From: Bradyrhizobium sp. NFR13
GTDB taxonomy: Bacteria; Pseudomonadota; Alphaproteobacteria; Rhizobiales; Xanthobacteraceae
Assembly: GCF_900114605.1 (NCBI RefSeq)
Contig: NZ_FOTP01000010.1
Location: 1-64,000 of the forward strand
DNA length: 64,000 nt
Reading direction: 5' to 3'
Part shown: one piece after another, positions 11,041 through 18,301 of the stretch
Layout: each line of letters starts with the position of its first letter
Numbering within the stretch: the stretch's first letter is position 1
The notes under the pieces: model-generated
What the model saw: the letters and a program-made list of their open reading frames with translations, nothing else
What the model was told of the DNA's origin: nothing
Databases searched by the model: none
Program-made: the position numbers and the translations under genes

Positions 11041-11206
11041 GCCGCACCTCGCCTGCTTGTTTGGGGGGTGACGGAGCTAGCGCTATCTTGTCGGAAATGC
11101 GCTAATCCATCTGTGAACGGAAGCTCACATCAGGCATTACCCAATGCGCAATGCCTGATGCAATCGGAAAAATGCGGTGCGCGAAATCAGCGGCCGGGAA
11201 AGTGTC

Positions 11207-11989
11207 GTGAACGTGTTGAAGGCCGCCATTTTTGCCTTGATTGCATCGACCGTCGTCGCACATGCCGACGACTGCCCGCGCAAGGATACGCTCGGCACCG
11301 CGCGCGTTCTCACGGTGGATCCCAGGGCCTTTCCGCGAGTCGGGACGCAGAGTTTTCCGGATACGCTGCCGCTGGAAGACCGCGAGGTGGTGCTGACCTT
11401 CGACGATGGCCCGAACGCGCCGACTACGACGAAGATTCTCACAGCGCTGTCGCGCGAATGTGTTCGCGCGACCTTCTTCCTGATCGGCAACAGCGCGACG
11501 GCCAATGCGGCGCTGGTGAAGCGCATGGCCGCCGAAGGGCACACCATCGGCCACCATACCCTCGCCCATGCCCACCTCAGCAAGATCAGCAACGCGGCGG
11601 CCGTCGAACAGATCGACAAGGGCATCAGCGCCGACGAAGTGGCGCTGAACGGCAAGGCCACCACCGTGCCGACCACGCCGTTCTTTCGCTTTCCGTATTT
11701 CGAGTCGACGCCGGCCCTGCTGGACATGCTGCAGTCCCGCCGGATCGCGGTGTTCGGGGCGGATTTCTGGGCCAGCGACTGGAATCCCATGACCCCGCAG
11801 CAGCAACTGGAGCTGATTACCGGCCGGCTGAAAGCCGCCGGGCGGGGAATCATCCTGTTTCACGACACCAAGGCGCAGACTGCCGCGATGCTGCCCGATT
11901 TCCTGCGCTATCTCCGGGAGAACCGCTACAGGGTCGTGCATATCGTGCCGCCGGCCGCAGGCTCCTCCGCCCGCTCCAGTTCCCAGTAG
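11207..11989 (+). CDS. secreted polysaccharide deacetylase (NodB domain), paralogue 1
   Basis: The 260-residue protein has a signal peptide (about 1-20) and a NodB homology domain. LTFDDGP at 63-69 supplies the catalytic and metal-binding aspartates, and H117-T-L-A-H121 the zinc histidines. FFLIGNSA and FRFPYFES follow as later motifs. It should remove acetyl groups from an envelope or extracellular polysaccharide outside the cytoplasm. I chose the GTG at 11207 because it puts the signal peptide at the N-terminus. The next gene is a paralogue with the same N-terminal VDPR...TLPL block. Confidence 0.82.
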   Translation: MNVLKAAIFALIASTVVAHADDCPRKDTLGTARVLTVDPRAFPRVGTQSFPDTLPLEDREVVLTFDDGPNAPTTTKILTALSRECVRATFFLIGNSATANAALVKRMAAEGHTIGHHTLAHAHLSKISNAAAVEQIDKGISADEVALNGKATTVPTTPFFRFPYFESTPALLDMLQSRRIAVFGADFWASDWNPMTPQQQLELITGRLKAAGRGIILFHDTKAQTAAMLPDFLRYLRENRYRVVHIVPPAAGSSARSSSQ

Positions 11990-12106
11990 TACGCGCGATC
12001 ATCAGGATGCGGAAAATACCGTCGGCGGGCCGACATGATTAACATTGCGTTCATGGCCGCCCCGGTACCTTTCCGGCGGATATTGCAGCGAGTGACGGAT
12101 CGATTG

Positions 12107-13405
12107 ATGAACAAGGTGACGACTGACCGGGCACGACGCCTTCTGTGCCTGAGCCTGCTCACCGGCCTGACCCTGTTCACCGCCGCCGCAGCCTCCACCA
12201 CCAGTGCTCTGTCGGCCGAGGCGTGCCCGGGCAATCCCGACGCGCTCGGCACCTCGCGCACCATCGTGGTCGATCCCCGCGAACATCCCAAGATCGGCAC
12301 CATGCAATATGCCGAGACGCTGCCGCTGCAGGACAAGGAGGTCGTGCTGACCTTCGACGACGGTCCGATCCCGAAACACTCGAACGCGATCCTCGATATC
12401 CTGGCTTCCGAATGCGTGAAGGCGACGTTCTTCATTATCGGCCGGATGGCGAAGGAGCATCCCGAAGGCGTGCGCAAGCTGATCGCGCTCGGCCACACCG
12501 TCGGCACCCACAGCCAGAACCATCCGCTCAGCATGAACCGCATGCCGATCGAGAAGGCGCAGCAGGAAATCGAGGACGGCATCGCCAACACCACCGCGGC
12601 GCTCGGCGATCCCGCGCTGCTGTCGCCATTCTTCCGGATTCCCGGCCTGCTGCGCGCCAGCGTCGTCGAGGACTATCTCGCCTCGCGCGGCATCCAGACC
12701 TGGAGCGCCGATTTCCCCGCCGACGACTGGCGCCATGTGTCGTCGCAGAAGGTCCATGACCTCGCGATCTCGCGCATCGCCGCCAAGGGCAAGGGCATCC
12801 TGTTGCTGCACGATATCCAGCCGCGCACCGTCGCCGCCCTGCCTGGCATCCTGCGCGACCTCAAGGCCGGCGGCTATCGCATCGTCCATGTCGAGGCGGC
12901 AACGCCCGACAAGCCGAAGACGCCCACGGAGCCGCAGCAGTGGCAGTTGCATCCGGTGTCGGAGACCGTGGCTGTCACGCGCTGGCACAAAGTGCCGACA
13001 TTCGCCTTCGCCCATGATGACATGCTGCCCGCGCCGGCGATCTCGGCCTCCGACCAGATGCTGTCGCTAACCGAGAATTTCGATCGCATGCGCCGGCCGC
13101 GCAATGCCGTGCCATTGCCCGAACAGGCGCCATGGCCGCGCGCCGCGACGCTGCATCCGATGACCAGCAGTGCCGCGCTGCCGGTACCGGCACAGGACCT
13201 GTTCGAGCTCGCCGAACGTCACGGCAAGCCGATCAAGGCACTCGTGCAGCTACCACATCACGCTCAACAGACGGCGCCTGCCCGCGGCAGCGATTCAGAT
13301 GCGATTGCGAAACTGATCTCGATCGACGCCAGCGCCGCCAGACGCACCATCCCCGGCGCCATTCCCCCGGGCCTGCATCCGACGGCAGTTGCCGCCCCGC
13401 GCTGA
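12107..13405 (+). CDS. secreted polysaccharide deacetylase (NodB domain), paralogue 2
   Basis: The 432-residue protein has a signal peptide (about 1-37), a NodB domain and a C-terminal extension of about 165 residues not found in its tandem neighbour. LTFDDGP is at 81-87, and H135-S-Q-N-H139-P holds the zinc histidines. The extension is proline and alanine rich and has no domain I recognise. It begins 118 bp after paralogue 1 and probably shares its transcript. Both share the block C-P-x-D-x-LGT-x-R followed by VDPR. The start could also be the ATG at 12035. Confidence 0.82.
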   Translation: MNKVTTDRARRLLCLSLLTGLTLFTAAAASTTSALSAEACPGNPDALGTSRTIVVDPREHPKIGTMQYAETLPLQDKEVVLTFDDGPIPKHSNAILDILASECVKATFFIIGRMAKEHPEGVRKLIALGHTVGTHSQNHPLSMNRMPIEKAQQEIEDGIANTTAALGDPALLSPFFRIPGLLRASVVEDYLASRGIQTWSADFPADDWRHVSSQKVHDLAISRIAAKGKGILLLHDIQPRTVAALPGILRDLKAGGYRIVHVEAATPDKPKTPTEPQQWQLHPVSETVAVTRWHKVPTFAFAHDDMLPAPAISASDQMLSLTENFDRMRRPRNAVPLPEQAPWPRAATLHPMTSSAALPVPAQDLFELAERHGKPIKALVQLPHHAQQTAPARGSDSDAIAKLISIDASAARRTIPGAIPPGLHPTAVAAPR

Positions 13406-13788: not shown

Positions 13789-13940
13789 GTCCGCTCCGGA
13801 AGATCGACCGGCACGGGATGGTCGGCGCCGGGTTGCGGCACTGCTAGCGGTAGATCGTTACGGGAGCACTAAAACACAACGACAACTGCGATCGATCTTT
13901 CGATTTGGTTAAGCCAAGTCCGCTTTGCCCTGCAACGCAT

Positions 13941-15155
13941 CTATTTGAGCAGCGTACATTCGCTTTCCGCTACGGGCCTGAATGCGTCCTCGCCCCGAAC
14001 GGTCGAAAGGTACTGGTAGTAATCCCAGGGTCCTGTGGACTCCGATGGAGATTTGACCTGAAACAGATGCATGTCGCGCATGACGCGGCCATCCTTGCGG
14101 ATCTTGACGTCCTTGCTCATGAAATCGTTGACGGGCAGCGATCGCATCGTATCGGAGACGGCTGGTCCGGCGATCGAGCCCGTTTTCTGGACTGATTTCA
14201 GATAGTGAGTGACTGCGCTGTAAACGCCCGCCTGGATCATGTTGGGTTTCTTCCTGGCGAGCGCCTCGAAACGTTTGGAAAAGCGGCGCGTCTCGTCATC
14301 CAGGTCCCAATAGAAGGCTTCGGCGATAACGATGCCCTGCGATGCCTTGAGTCCGAGACCATGCACGGTGTTGATGAGAAGAAGGAGGCCGCCAAGTCGC
14401 TGGCCTCCCTTCACGATACCGAATTCATCGGCCTGCTTGATCGTGTTCAGCGAGTCATCGCCGGAATTGGCGAGACCGATGATCTTGGCACCGGATCCCT
14501 GTGCCTGCAGCAGAAAGGATGAGAAATCGGCCGTGCCGAGTGGATGCCGCACGCGGCCGAGCACCTTTCCGCCCAGCCGCTCGATGGCTGTCGTTGCGTC
14601 CCGCTCGAGCGCATGACCGAACGCATAGTTGCTCGTGATGAAGAACCAGGTGTCGACGCCGGATTTCGCCATGGCTCTCGGCAGCGTATTAGCCAGCGCA
14701 TAGGTGTCGTAGGTCCAGTGAAAGCCGAGCGATGAACAGGCATTGCCGGTCAGGTCGGACGTCGCCGGGCCGGAGAACATGGCGATCTTTTCTTTCTCCC
14801 TGGCGATATCCTGGATCACGAGCCCGGCAGCGGAGGTGCCACCGTCGACGATGGCGCTGACATTCTCCACGTCGATCCATCGGCGCGTGATCGCCGCTGC
14901 GATATCGGTCTTGTTCTGATGGTCGGCGGAGAGCAGTTCGATGCGACGCCCAAGCACCTTCTCTCCGAAGTCTTCAATTGCGAGACGTGCGGCGATCACC
15001 GATCCCAGCCCGGTCACATCCGCGGTACTGCCCGACTGATCATTGAGAACGCCTATGCGAAGCGGCGCATCTTCGGCGCGACCGTCGCCGAGCGACGCAA
15101 AGGGCGCAACCAATGCAAGCGCCAGCAGTATGAAACAAGACCTTGAGCCTGGCAT
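13941..15155 (-). CDS. Liv-type ABC transporter substrate-binding protein
   Basis: The 404-residue protein has a signal peptide (about 1-27) and a periplasmic-binding type 1 fold (Peripla_BP_6). LRIGVLNDQSGSTADVTG starts the first lobe, followed by ADHQNKTDIAAAITRRW and the SGPATSDLTG ligand-binding region. Such proteins bind amino acids, amides, aromatic acids or other small acids for LivHMGF-type importers. No permease or ATPase gene is in the window, so its transporter lies elsewhere, or it acts as a sensor. It is divergent from an AraC gene, and its promoter carries the 17-bp motif also found upstream of the UGSC gene. Confidence 0.85.
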   Translation of the reverse strand: MPGSRSCFILLALALVAPFASLGDGRAEDAPLRIGVLNDQSGSTADVTGLGSVIAARLAIEDFGEKVLGRRIELLSADHQNKTDIAAAITRRWIDVENVSAIVDGGTSAAGLVIQDIAREKEKIAMFSGPATSDLTGNACSSLGFHWTYDTYALANTLPRAMAKSGVDTWFFITSNYAFGHALERDATTAIERLGGKVLGRVRHPLGTADFSSFLLQAQGSGAKIIGLANSGDDSLNTIKQADEFGIVKGGQRLGGLLLLINTVHGLGLKASQGIVIAEAFYWDLDDETRRFSKRFEALARKKPNMIQAGVYSAVTHYLKSVQKTGSIAGPAVSDTMRSLPVNDFMSKDVKIRKDGRVMRDMHLFQVKSPSESTGPWDYYQYLSTVRGEDAFRPVAESECTLLK

Positions 15156-15276
15156 TCCACGTTCCCCTCACGACAGCCGACCTCGCCGATCGGCTCCCCC
15201 CGTCCAAAACGCGCTCGAAACCAGTCATGCAAAAACATGGCCGGATTCTCGAATGCCAGAGGTGGAGCGTGAAAGC

Positions 15277-15293
15277 TTGAACGTTATTGGATA
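15277..15293 (-). promoter_or_regulatory. candidate AraC operator, copy 1
   Basis: The plus-strand sequence TTGAACGTTATTGGATA matches TTGAATGATGTTGGATA at 18037-18053 in 14 of 17 positions. Both copies lie upstream of a minus-strand gene in the same orientation, the binding protein here and the UGSC gene there, and this copy also sits in the AraC gene's own upstream region. I infer the AraC protein binds both. Confidence 0.5.
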
Positions 15294-15362
15294 TTTCGCA
15301 CGCGCAGGCCGGAGCGGCGCAAAGCGCTTGCGTCCCGCCGCGCCGTCCTCCTAAGCTCAAGC

Positions 15363-16229
15363 ATGGCAATCGACGAGACTCTTCCCCGTGGCCTGAAACT
15401 GCACAATCTGGGTGGGATAGAGGTGGTCGCAGGACGATATCGCGACCATGTCCTGCCCCGGCACAGCCACGACGGACTGATGCTGTCGCTCTTGAGCGAC
15501 GGCGTACAGGCGCTGCATTGCCGGGGCGTGACGCACTTCGCCGATGCGGGGAAAATTCTGGCGGTGCCGCCGCATGAAGTGCATGCGGCCGAACCCGGCG
15601 TCGAAGGTGGATGGTACTATCACACGATCACCATTCCATCGGACGTGCTCGAACGGCACCACCCTCAGGGCGCACGCTTTCTCTGCGAGACCGCAATTTG
15701 CGACGACGGCATGAAGCGCGTTCTGCAGACGCTGTTCCGCAGCTTCAATGGAGCACCCGTGCTTGCGCAAGAGGAAGCGCTGCTTGACGTGCTGGAGCAC
15801 TTTCTGACCCGACACACCCGCCTTCCGCAGAGGGCATCTCACAAACCGATCGAACTGCGCGCGGTCGAGACCTGCAAGGCATATCTCGCCGCCTATCTTC
15901 ACCGCAACGTCACGCTCACCGAGCTTGCGCAACTTGCGCGGATAGATCGCTTTCTGTTGGTCAGGTGCTTCACGAATATCGTCGGAATCCCCCCGCACGC
16001 CTGGCACATGCAACAGCGCCTTCACAAGAGTTTCGAAATGCTGTCCAAGGGACAAAGCGTGGCGGACGTTGCCGCTGCAACGGGGTTCGCGGACCAAGCC
16101 CATTTGACACGCGCCTTCAAGCGGGTGACCGGAATCACGCCCGGCCGGCTCAGGAAAGACCATCTCGCCTTTCAGTCGCAGCCGGCGACCAGCCGTCCGC
16201 GCATCACGTGGCCGCTTCCCAGCCTGTAA
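15363..16229 (+). CDS. AraC family transcriptional regulator
   Basis: The 288-residue protein has an N-terminal cupin-like ligand domain (LPRHSHDGLMLSLLSDG, then VPPHEVHAAEP) and a C-terminal pair of helix-turn-helix motifs from about residue 175 (VTLTELAQLARI and SVADVAAATGFADQAHLTRAFK). That is the AraC/XylS activator layout with an AraC_binding N-domain. It is divergent from the binding-protein gene and convergent with the UGSC gene, so it probably controls both in response to a small molecule. The ligand is unknown. Confidence 0.9.
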   Translation: MAIDETLPRGLKLHNLGGIEVVAGRYRDHVLPRHSHDGLMLSLLSDGVQALHCRGVTHFADAGKILAVPPHEVHAAEPGVEGGWYYHTITIPSDVLERHHPQGARFLCETAICDDGMKRVLQTLFRSFNGAPVLAQEEALLDVLEHFLTRHTRLPQRASHKPIELRAVETCKAYLAAYLHRNVTLTELAQLARIDRFLLVRCFTNIVGIPPHAWHMQQRLHKSFEMLSKGQSVADVAAATGFADQAHLTRAFKRVTGITPGRLRKDHLAFQSQPATSRPRITWPLPSL

Positions 16230-16273
16230 CGACCGACGCGGTCGCAGAGCAAGGGCCGCCCGGCCAGCGTCGA

Positions 16274-17977
16274 TCAGGCAAGCCGTATTTCCCGACTGGT
16301 CGGAAAGCCGTGAAGTCCATTGCTGCCGAAGACCATCGCGTTGGAGCGGTACGGATCGCCCGACACGACAATCAGGATATGGTCCGCGCGCTCGACGATG
16401 GGCACCAGCCGGTTCGGATCGTCGCTTTCCGCGAAATGCGCGGCAGCAAGCCCGTCTTCGTGAAGTCGCCGCAACGTTCGGCGTCCCGGAACGCAGTTAG
16501 AGTATTTGCCGATGTAAGCTTCGAACTTCCAGGCGGGAATCCGGGCATGGCGATAAAGCCGTTCGCGCAGATCTTCGATATTACTTCCGGCCTTCGCCAG
16601 CGTCTTGGCAACCATCGGACTGATCGCCACGAGCGGACGGAGGGTACCGGGCGCCAGGCCGGCCGTAAAACATAGTTCCCAACAGCTTTGACGGATCAAA
16701 CCGTCAGCAAGATAGATCGCGATGTCTTCGGGATCGCGGCCATAGATGGAGCCGACCACGGTGTCGCCCGTGAACCTTCCGACCGTTACAACACTGGAGC
16801 CCTTTGCGAAGCCCTTGCGCCCTGCGAATGTCGTCCAGCCCAGCTTTGCGACTTCCGGCTCGTGCTCGGCGAGAACCACGCGGGCGGAATGGCCGAACGT
16901 GCATTTGTCGCCCTCTCCCGGCCGCAGCCCGACAACATTTCGCAGGAAGAGGCGGAGGAACCGTCCCACCGTGGTGTTGGCCCTGGTCCCTTCACGCATC
17001 GCGCCGTTTTCGCAATTGAACCCGAGCACCTCAATGACCGGACCACTGAGCACGATCAGCGGATCGCCGCCCGTCGTGTCGCCGCTGTGCTCGACCCCGT
17101 AGGCAGGGTTGGCCATGATCTCGGCAATGGCGACCAGGACCGGCATATATTCTGGCGCGCACCCGGCCATGACGCCATTGACCGCCACATTCCAGATCGT
17201 CACGCCGGATCCGGATGGCTGAACGCAGCCAATCAGCCTGTCCGGCGGATATGGAGTAAACTTCAAGAACTCTGCCACCGCGTCACGTGTCGGCGGAACG
17301 ATCGGCAAGCCGTCGGACCAGCCTTCGACCCGATAGATCTCGTTGATCTCGTTGAAGTCGCCCGTCGCCACAATCTCGGTCGGCGAATATATCGTGGCCG
17401 CTTTTCCCTGCGGCGCCGGCTGTGTCGTCAGACATTTCGCGACAGCATTCGCCGTGTGAGACAACACCATGTCACGCAATTCGGCATTGCTCAGGCTGTC
17501 GACATATCCCGGCATCTCCACCACGGGCAGCCAGGCGCAACCGAGACCCGGAGACACCGCACGGGCCTGTCCGGCAAAGCCCTCGCACACCAGCGAGGCC
17601 GTTGGAATACCGGCTTTCTCGATCGCGGCACTGGCGCGCACGACCGCCGGCGTGCAGGCGCCGCAGCAGCCGATGCCGGAAATCACCACGTCCACGCCAT
17701 GTTCGGCGAGCTTGCCCGGCAGTTCGGCGAGCACCTTGCGATCATTGCCGCCGAGTGTATTTCCGAACTTCTCGTAGCTGACGAAGGTTGCGCCCGGACA
17801 GGCTTCGCCCAGAGCTTCCTCCAGAAGCGCAAAGATCTCATCGCCGCGAAAGAGGTAGTCCCAGACGAAAGCAATCCGGCGGCCGGCAAGGGTCGCGGGG
17901 CGGTTCGCCGGATGAAATATCTCGATCGAAGGCGCACCTTCCGGCGAGACCGTTCGATAAGGCGTAGCTGTGATCAT
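16274..17977 (-). CDS. UGSC-type protein with CGAC motif, unknown catabolic role
   Basis: The 567-residue protein has two parts. Residues 30-200 resemble UGSC (seleno)proteins: RRIAFVWDYLFRGDEIF, a KFGNTLGGN loop and the redox-like motif C104-C-G-A-C108 in place of U-G-S-C. Both positions are ordinary TGC cysteine codons, so no selenocysteine is needed here. The second part, from about 215, begins EINEIYRVEGWSDGLPIVPPT, a module often paired with UGSC domains. The family's chemistry is undefined. The ATG at 17977 has AGGGAAG about ten bases upstream. The AraC-linked motif lies 60 bp upstream. Confidence 0.65.
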   Translation of the reverse strand: MITATPYRTVSPEGAPSIEIFHPANRPATLAGRRIAFVWDYLFRGDEIFALLEEALGEACPGATFVSYEKFGNTLGGNDRKVLAELPGKLAEHGVDVVISGIGCCGACTPAVVRASAAIEKAGIPTASLVCEGFAGQARAVSPGLGCAWLPVVEMPGYVDSLSNAELRDMVLSHTANAVAKCLTTQPAPQGKAATIYSPTEIVATGDFNEINEIYRVEGWSDGLPIVPPTRDAVAEFLKFTPYPPDRLIGCVQPSGSGVTIWNVAVNGVMAGCAPEYMPVLVAIAEIMANPAYGVEHSGDTTGGDPLIVLSGPVIEVLGFNCENGAMREGTRANTTVGRFLRLFLRNVVGLRPGEGDKCTFGHSARVVLAEHEPEVAKLGWTTFAGRKGFAKGSSVVTVGRFTGDTVVGSIYGRDPEDIAIYLADGLIRQSCWELCFTAGLAPGTLRPLVAISPMVAKTLAKAGSNIEDLRERLYRHARIPAWKFEAYIGKYSNCVPGRRTLRRLHEDGLAAAHFAESDDPNRLVPIVERADHILIVVSGDPYRSNAMVFGSNGLHGFPTSREIRLA

Positions 17978-18301
17978 CCGATGCTTCCCTGCACTGACGT
18001 GTTGCAAGGACTTTGCTCGGAGCGCGCGCGCGAATATTGAATGATGTTGGATAAGTTTCGTTACCTTGCGAGACCGTGATGCGCTTCGATGCGCGGCTTG
18101 ACGGAGATCGGACTCGCGTCGAGGTACAGACCCGTTAGCGCGGCACGGCCGGCCGGTGCATCGCAATCTTGACAGAGGAACCGGCTTCGACGTAACCAAC
18201 CATCATTGCAGGGTGTCTCCCCGCCGTAAGCGTTAACGTCACTCAACGTGCTCAGCTCCGGACAGCCCCAACATGGCTGGCCGCCCCGAAAGCACGTCGA
18301 C
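17978..18301. other. divergent intergenic region, UGSC and MFS genes
   Basis: This 324-bp gap separates the divergent UGSC and MFS genes. It holds the candidate AraC operator at 18037-18053. The rest has no open frame with family resemblance and no RNA or riboswitch that I can recognise. Confidence 0.5.
18037..18053 (-). promoter_or_regulatory. candidate AraC operator, copy 2
   Basis: The plus-strand sequence TTGAATGATGTTGGATA is followed two bases on by a TTTCG that also follows copy 1. It lies 60 bp upstream of the UGSC start, in the same orientation relative to transcription as copy 1 upstream of the binding-protein gene. Confidence 0.5.

Follow-up and report, generated by a model that had tools for sequence, protein, structure and literature searches.

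UGSC is a selenoprotein family without an assigned function, whose fusion to an unknown domain with a conserved cysteine was reported in 2008 (Zhang and Gladyshev, PMC2398784). The available parts of the UGSC literature assign it no specific function, and those of PMC2398784 and PMC9402790 show it to be one of the more frequent selenoprotein families of ocean metagenomes. Here, we analysed a 64,000-nucleotide stretch of DNA from Bradyrhizobium sp. NFR13 (the window; contig NZ_FOTP01000010.1, positions 1 to 64,000), in which a cysteine form of the UGSC/Unknown_1 fusion is encoded beside an AraC/XylS-family regulator and a Liv-type substrate-binding protein (SBP). The window protein has the same UxxC/CxxC domain as the UGSC selenoproteins and apparently the fusion described, as far as the accessible sources go (PMC2398784, PF24696, NF041046). 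Its clade differs from them by Cys in place of selenocysteine (Sec), and the accessible text of PMC2398784 describes no regulator, operator, SBP partner or mobile cassette.

A possible link leads to the GrdB/PrdB family of glycine, sarcosine, betaine and D-proline reductases (PF07355): the CxxC/UxxC domain of a GrdB-like protein aligned in register with that of the window protein over 58 columns, but the window UGSC has no match to the Pfam GRDB model. According to the available parts of PMC10838667, the fluoroacetate reductase operon farACEB of Cloacibacillus porcorum is substrate-induced and encodes a transporter together with GrdB-like proteins, which are proposed to attack the C–X bond. 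The likeness to our locus, as we read it, lies in this pairing within an inducible unit. The same parts show the differences: farACEB belongs to an anaerobe and encodes GrdB/GrdE homologues, a transporter of the major facilitator superfamily (MFS) type and an iron-sulphur/radical-SAM oxidoreductase, whereas the window has a Liv SBP and AraC. With the AraC/XylS local activators of catabolic genes, the window AraC shares the AraC_binding sensor and HTH_18, and it differs in its targets and operator sequence. The window SBP is similar to the solved Liv-type SBPs 3i09 and 3n0w but is operator-linked to UGSC and has no adjacent permease genes. The component parts are of known kinds; we did not meet the combination of AraC, SBP and UGSC, the operator or its mobility in literature search listings or in the available parts of the UGSC papers. 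The features of the locus are as follows.

13941..15155, minus strand: SBP gene, Liv-type periplasmic substrate-binding protein of 404 aa (Peripla_BP_6, E 3.5e-100)
15363..16229, plus strand: AraC/XylS-family regulator gene, 288 aa, cupin-type sensor and two-helix-turn-helix domain (HTH_18, AraC_binding)
16274..17977, minus strand: UGSC/Unknown_1 fusion gene, 567 aa, cysteine form (PF24696, E 2.2e-26)
15277..15293, plus strand: operator S, TTGAACGTTATTGGATA, core 15277-15290
18037..18053, plus strand: operator U, TTGAATGATGTTGGATA, core 18037-18050
13907..18163, no strand: inserted cassette of ~4.26 kb that contains the SBP, AraC and UGSC genes and the two operators (borders approximate to tens of bases)

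The reading that we prefer is a mobile catabolic or detoxifying regulon in which UGSC would carry out a GrdB-like reaction; judged from sequence comparison, we give this proposal as a whole a probability of about 45%. Its first part, that AraC, SBP and UGSC constitute a regulon, is highly probable. The small regulon with a common operator that had been proposed in a first-pass annotation of this DNA was supported in that the operator follows the AraC gene and all parts lie on one cassette.

Operator S precedes the SBP start codon by ~121 bp and the divergent AraC gene by ~70 bp, and operator U lies ~59 bp before the start codon of UGSC. As the first-pass annotation had described, the two 17-mers are identical at 14 of 17 bases and have the same orientation toward the two minus-strand genes. 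When the intergenic pair was shuffled by dinucleotides, 183 of 2000 cases reached at least 14/17 with the orientation kept the same (330 of 2000 in either orientation). The 17-mer pair alone is therefore not significant, and on this basis it could be read as a chance similarity of two intergenic stretches. Searching the whole 6.2-Mb genome with the core TTGMAYRWWNTTGG gave two matches, both at the window's two sites (reversed pattern: one), and the 17-mer with up to 3 mismatches gave 24 matches versus 4 for the reversed control, with 0 mismatches at the window's two sites only. Using models trained without the tested lineage, the best match was the operator in all 14 promoters from 7 lineages, and in each case none of 200 shuffles was as good; this count leaves out two Tardiphaga sp. 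P9-11 sites, almost duplicates of those in the window, as well as a KLAP40 site of doubtful standing. Chance similarity was rejected by this leave-one-lineage-out comparison (14/14 sites), and with the site kept at orthologous positions in 7 lineages while the flanks diverged, it has practically no standing as an explanation.

The AraC protein, which belongs to the AraC/XylS family by its Pfam matches to HTH_18 (69.7 bits) and AraC_binding (61.8 bits), is encoded at nine loci: the window, G002, Tardiphaga sp. P9-11, the KLAP40 metagenome-assembled genome (MAG), Rhodopseudomonas infernalis, an Azospirillaceae MAG, Roseibium aggregatum, Zongyanglinia marina and a Rhodospirillales MAG. By matching coordinates, Tardiphaga sp. 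P9-11 is G008 of our genome sample, the KLAP40 MAG is G182 and R. infernalis is G166. The scan for related loci was a non-exhaustive one, built on six exact peptide patterns. The operator core was present upstream of UGSC at all nine loci and upstream of the SBP gene in all six that have a neighbouring SBP. At 19 of 19 UGSC loci without AraC, it was not found in the stretches examined, where the best score was 6.0 compared with 19.1 for the weakest true site. These 19 loci comprise 13 of the 14 other class genomes with UGSC, the family genomes G156 and G034, and L017-L020; the partial sequences G707 and L023, L100 as the second copy in G581, and more distant family matches were left out. Clearly, the operator is conserved and linked to this AraC, and AraC is the likely binder of both operators. 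Absence of the motif from relatives, or a random frequency in the genome, had been named beforehand as grounds for giving up the shared operator; the motif was found in the relatives, and its genome frequency was not random.

Read toward the gene, the operator is TCCAA-N5-TTCAA (the reverse complement of the motif as first reported), a direct repeat with its halves one helical turn apart, and NCCAA replaces the first half in three lineages. AraC/XylS operators have the geometry of a 10-bp direct repeat adjoining the -35 position. The mean information was 1.36 bits in the motif versus 0.23 in the flanks, where motif-adjacent positions were also conserved; the conserved columns are not independent, because several of the sites share a genome or genus. 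Beyond the motif, G at +33 (12 of 14 sites) and A at +36 (11 of 14) form a weak NGSCAT located 17 bp after the TTCAAN hexamer. Since the 3′ operator half would replace the -35 element at 17 bp from this -10-like sequence, AraC is probably a class II activator at both promoters. Because the site overlaps a possible -35 position, one might suspect a promoter element or the site of another regulator, with AraC hitch-hiking in the cassette. The genome has no other exact core match, so the motif is not a general promoter, and its presence at 9/9 loci with this AraC and 0/19 without makes such an origin very unlikely.

The arrangement of the genes varied among the lineages. In the window, the AraC gene diverges from SBP and converges with UGSC, as first described. 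This layout is not general: in three lineages, represented by the loci of Roseibium, Zongyanglinia and the Rhodospirillales MAG, a single site separates divergently transcribed AraC and UGSC genes. Exact-core search in the window's genome revealed no wider regulon. In nine genomes together we counted 30 core matches (reversed pattern: 6), 17 at AraC loci and 13 outside. Five of the latter were inspected in four stretches (L117-L120); by reading of the open reading frame (ORF) lists, four lie inside predicted ORFs and none precedes a related gene. A third KLAP40 site (L013 9644) lies ~500 bp upstream of an acyl-CoA ligase gene. This ligase shares just 32% identity with that of Roseibium, whose gene is directly downstream of UGSC, and the site was therefore not used in the site model. 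The Azospirillaceae MAG has a third operator before an epoxide hydrolase gene, and its operator-bearing SBP is only 24% identical to the window SBP. Before this SBP gene, a remnant of a second AraC copy (L014:14197-14619) was found with an intact operator alongside.

To follow the distribution of the system, we searched 391 genomes of the family, an even sample of a larger group. The UGSC protein gave matches in 38 at E <= 0.001, five of them full-length at at least 73% identity, and the AraC ortholog was present at E <= 1e-40 in exactly these five. Within the genus, UGSC occurs in 3 of 18 genomes. In the class sample, the AraC ortholog was detected at E <= 1e-50 in only 1 of 385 genomes, the window's own, and UGSC at E <= 1e-60 in 15 of 385. 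UGSC was also present in 24 plasmid records, every one below 60% identity. In an unrooted tree, a branch with 100/100 support sets apart the eight AraC-linked UGSC proteins that could be included, next to three Sec-type proteins.

Comparison with genomes of the same genus indicates that SBP, AraC, UGSC and both operators form a horizontally moving cassette. The flanking MFS gene is present in 11 of 18 such genomes, and in 9 of these 11 it adjoins the gene for a 123-aa protein, the left neighbour of the cassette in the window, with no cassette between. In three cassette-free genomes (G003, G004 and G016), homology to the window stops at 13906 and starts again at 18164; as these empty sites carry ~120-195 bp of their own DNA, the edges of the cassette are approximate. 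Six more distant empty copies place the left border at 13897-13910 and the right border at 18206-18220. The cassette of G002 is ~1.2 Mb from the MFS gene, and the MFS site is empty.

The UGSC fusion protein contains the following parts, all encoded on the minus strand.

17432..17944, minus strand: UGSC domain, residues 12-182, apparently remotely like the CxxC/Sec domain of the GrdB-like family
17654..17665, minus strand: CxxC motif, residues 105-108, C-G-A-C
16277..17380, minus strand: Unknown_1 domain, residues 200-567; its Cys273 is kept by all 11 aligned relatives

The protein matched PF24696 with 93.5 bits, above the gathering score of 25, and all 11 aligned members match this model. We take the fused domain of the 2008 fusion to be the same as Unknown_1. 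The codon for residue 105 in the window is TGC (Cys) and not the in-frame TGA of a selenoprotein, and Cys occupies this position in all eight full-length AraC-linked UGSC proteins. Among the AraC-less relatives, 18 of 19 have an in-frame TGA at this position; the remaining one, L115, has one TGA, and its motif was not located by the script. Counting Sec as Cys, C105, C108 and C273 are invariant in the 11-row alignment. A truncated UGSC (L022:10001-10351) has Gly at position 105 (GCGGAC) and retains Cys104 and Cys108. The AlphaFold2 model of the whole protein reached a mean predicted local distance difference test score (pLDDT) of 80.8 and a predicted template modelling score (pTM) of 0.84, and the model of the Unknown_1 domain a pLDDT of 79.0, so that both are of fair quality.

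According to the first-pass annotation, UGSC was a protein of undefined chemistry. The chemistry is now less blank, UGSC being a named selenoprotein family whose fusion was reported in 2008, and the CxxC domain appears remotely similar to GrdB-like reductases. For this comparison, we built a family profile of six sequences from the GrdB-like gene of the same genome and five relatives from other class genomes. The own-genome protein (C7:1029754-1030692, L121/L122) has a CxxC motif and matches PF07355 with 27.3 bits (cut-off 22); each of the five relatives has an in-frame TGA. Using hhalign, the UGSC domain aligned to this profile with a score of 47.0 (probability 87%, P 3.6e-6) and the CxxC in register. 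The best of 120 column shuffles scored 28.1, the reversed profiles 17.4 and 16.6 and an unrelated SBP profile 19.8, and with the CCGAC cysteines masked the score was 38.3. A search for the GrdB family in 115 class genomes gave nothing at E <= 1e-30, but the controls were silent too.

The neighbours of UGSC at the AraC-less loci offer further hints as to its role. At 8 of the 19 loci, Pfam matches confirmed an importer binding protein in the vicinity of UGSC (OpuAC at L101; DctP at L104 and L112; SBP_bac_5 at L106; TctC at L113; NMT1 at L114 and L020; Peripla_BP_6 at L018), and five further loci (L102, L103, L108, L110 and L017) look importer-linked by sequence reading. No importer protein was shown at L105, L107, L109, L111, L115 and L019, where some contigs are short. 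Betaine-type importer genes lie beside three of the Sec-type relatives (OpuAC confirmed by Pfam in one, two by reading). A second Unknown_1 protein adjoins UGSC at 11 of 19 loci, and a Pyr_redox_2-like protein is encoded nearby at 7 of 19 (L018 and L106 confirmed by Pfam, five by reading), both counts standing without a null. The compact order UGSC(Sec), second Unknown_1, pyridine nucleotide-disulfide oxidoreductase-like gene was seen at L106, L107, L108, L112 and L113, the last gene being Pfam-confirmed in L106 only. This three-gene order suggests an enzyme with its own electron supply.

Several results weigh against a GrdB-like reaction in an activator-dependent, importer-linked regulon. The GrdB-like alignment spans only 58 columns, the UGSC profile matched a single GrdB-like sequence weakly (probability 7%, P 0.0048), and Pfam GRDB (PF07355) had no match in 11 UGSC proteins at E <= 10. 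The equivalog cut-off of the NCBIfam model UGSC_fam (NF041046) was not reached (54.8 of 125 bits). A PDB fold search with the whole UGSC model and the Unknown_1 domain gave no match at E <= 0.001, and no solved UGSC relative was found by sequence profile. ABC and TRAP genes are frequent in genomes of this kind, and the importer counts stand without a null. The second Unknown_1 gene was not found at the AraC loci, where flavin reductase was not searched and L022 ends inside UGSC. Finally, a consensus sigma-70 scan detected no promoter at the operator sites, which fits an activator-dependent promoter but equally none. Weak rows for FtsZ, RpiB and fumarate hydratase in the fold search were not used.

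Alternatively, the regulon could be real and UGSC/Unknown_1 a thioredoxin-like thiol oxidoreductase of stress or repair rather than a substrate reductase, the SBP bringing in a signal or an unrelated nutrient. A thioredoxin-like fold and a redox function were suggested for UGSC by Zhang and Gladyshev (available parts of PMC2398784), and the invariant C105, C108 and C273 as well as the flavin disulfide reductase neighbours in some relatives would suit such a protein. Its probable co-regulation with the SBP, the vicinity of relatives to importers and, in some lineages, to acyl-CoA ligase or epoxide hydrolase, and the apparent remote similarity of the N-domain to the GrdB-like family speak against this role. 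Furthermore, no thioredoxin-fold protein is among the 50 fold matches listed for the whole model, and we regard the thioredoxin-like role as less likely.

The SBP matched Peripla_BP_6 with 336.5 bits, and its solved relatives are 3i09 (E 2.4e-106) and 3n0w (E 1.4e-85), both presumably from Burkholderia. A search of the whole window with Liv proteins found no LivH, LivM, LivG or LivF gene beside the SBP gene in the cassette; the only such matches were LivG/LivF-like ATPases at ~49.8-50.6 kb. This search queried one Liv protein set (L018), so that divergent permeases could be missed. The genome encodes 15 SBPs of this subfamily at 14 loci (L140-L152 besides the window), the other 14 being 45-53% identical to the window SBP. 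At C7:843989-846440 (L143), two of them lie beside livH, livM, livG and livF homologues. For the remaining 13, no full permease set was seen in the DNA examined, which amounted to 14 kb per locus and to the entire window for the SBP encoded there, with an ATPase match ~4 kb from the SBP at L140 and, at L146, the start of a different Liv-like set ~5 kb away that reaches the end of the stretch. Thus, the lack of a permease pointed out in the first-pass annotation holds for the cassette, but it is not unusual in this genome. It might nevertheless be taken to mean that the SBP is a sensor or scavenger working without a transporter, which the 13 of 15 subfamily members without a full set would also allow. 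The livHMGF locus with its two same-subfamily SBPs could serve orphan SBPs, and the cassette carries no membrane-sensor gene, which makes a transporter-free SBP improbable. We propose that the window SBP works with a permease from another locus, most likely the C7 livHMGF, and one permease is possibly served by many orphan SBPs; a literature search on orphan SBPs found no paper.

For the preferred reading, a mobile catabolic or detoxifying regulon, we propose the following course of events. AraC would sense a small molecule via its N-terminal cupin-type domain and bind the direct-repeat operator TCCAA-N5-TTCAA before SBP and UGSC, where the 3′ half of the operator would stand in for the -35 element 17 bp from the weak conserved -10-like NGSCAT. 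The SBP would capture the substrate for a Liv permease from another locus, with livHMGF at C7 (~843989-846440) as the likeliest candidate. In the cell, the CxxC thiols of UGSC may attack the substrate in the way proposed for the selenocysteine of GrdB-type enzymes, with reductive cleavage of a C–N or other C–heteroatom bond of a betaine-like or carboxylate substrate. More tentatively, the UGSC/Unknown_1 proteins as a whole might be widespread GrdB-related thiol/selenol reductases that convert imported compounds beyond the classic anaerobic Stickland setting. Lineage by lineage, the enzyme would then be paired with a different importer class (Liv, ProU, TRAP, Opp, TctC or NMT1) and often with a dedicated flavin disulfide reductase, and the AraC clade would have swapped Sec for Cys and become a mobile three-gene regulon. 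The relatives are mostly alphaproteobacteria, which we take to be aerobes, unlike the setting of GrdB/PrdB.

The cassette ties a natural cysteine-form UGSC to one regulator and one binding protein, and therefore its substrate can be sought by ligand screening of SBP or AraC. Because the cysteine form is natural, UGSC can be produced in ordinary E. coli; if the proposal is true, the Cys-for-Sec swap makes the UGSC enzyme accessible without selenocysteine expression. In addition, the operator represents a clean case of a regulator and its sites travelling together across distant alphaproteobacteria.

Further upstream in the window, the genes at 11177-11989 and 12035-13405 presumably encode polysaccharide deacetylases, as judged by a TFDDGP motif. 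The product of the gene at 12035-13405 is ~41% identical over 236 aa to the Tardiphaga sp. P9-11 counterpart of the 11177-11989 gene.

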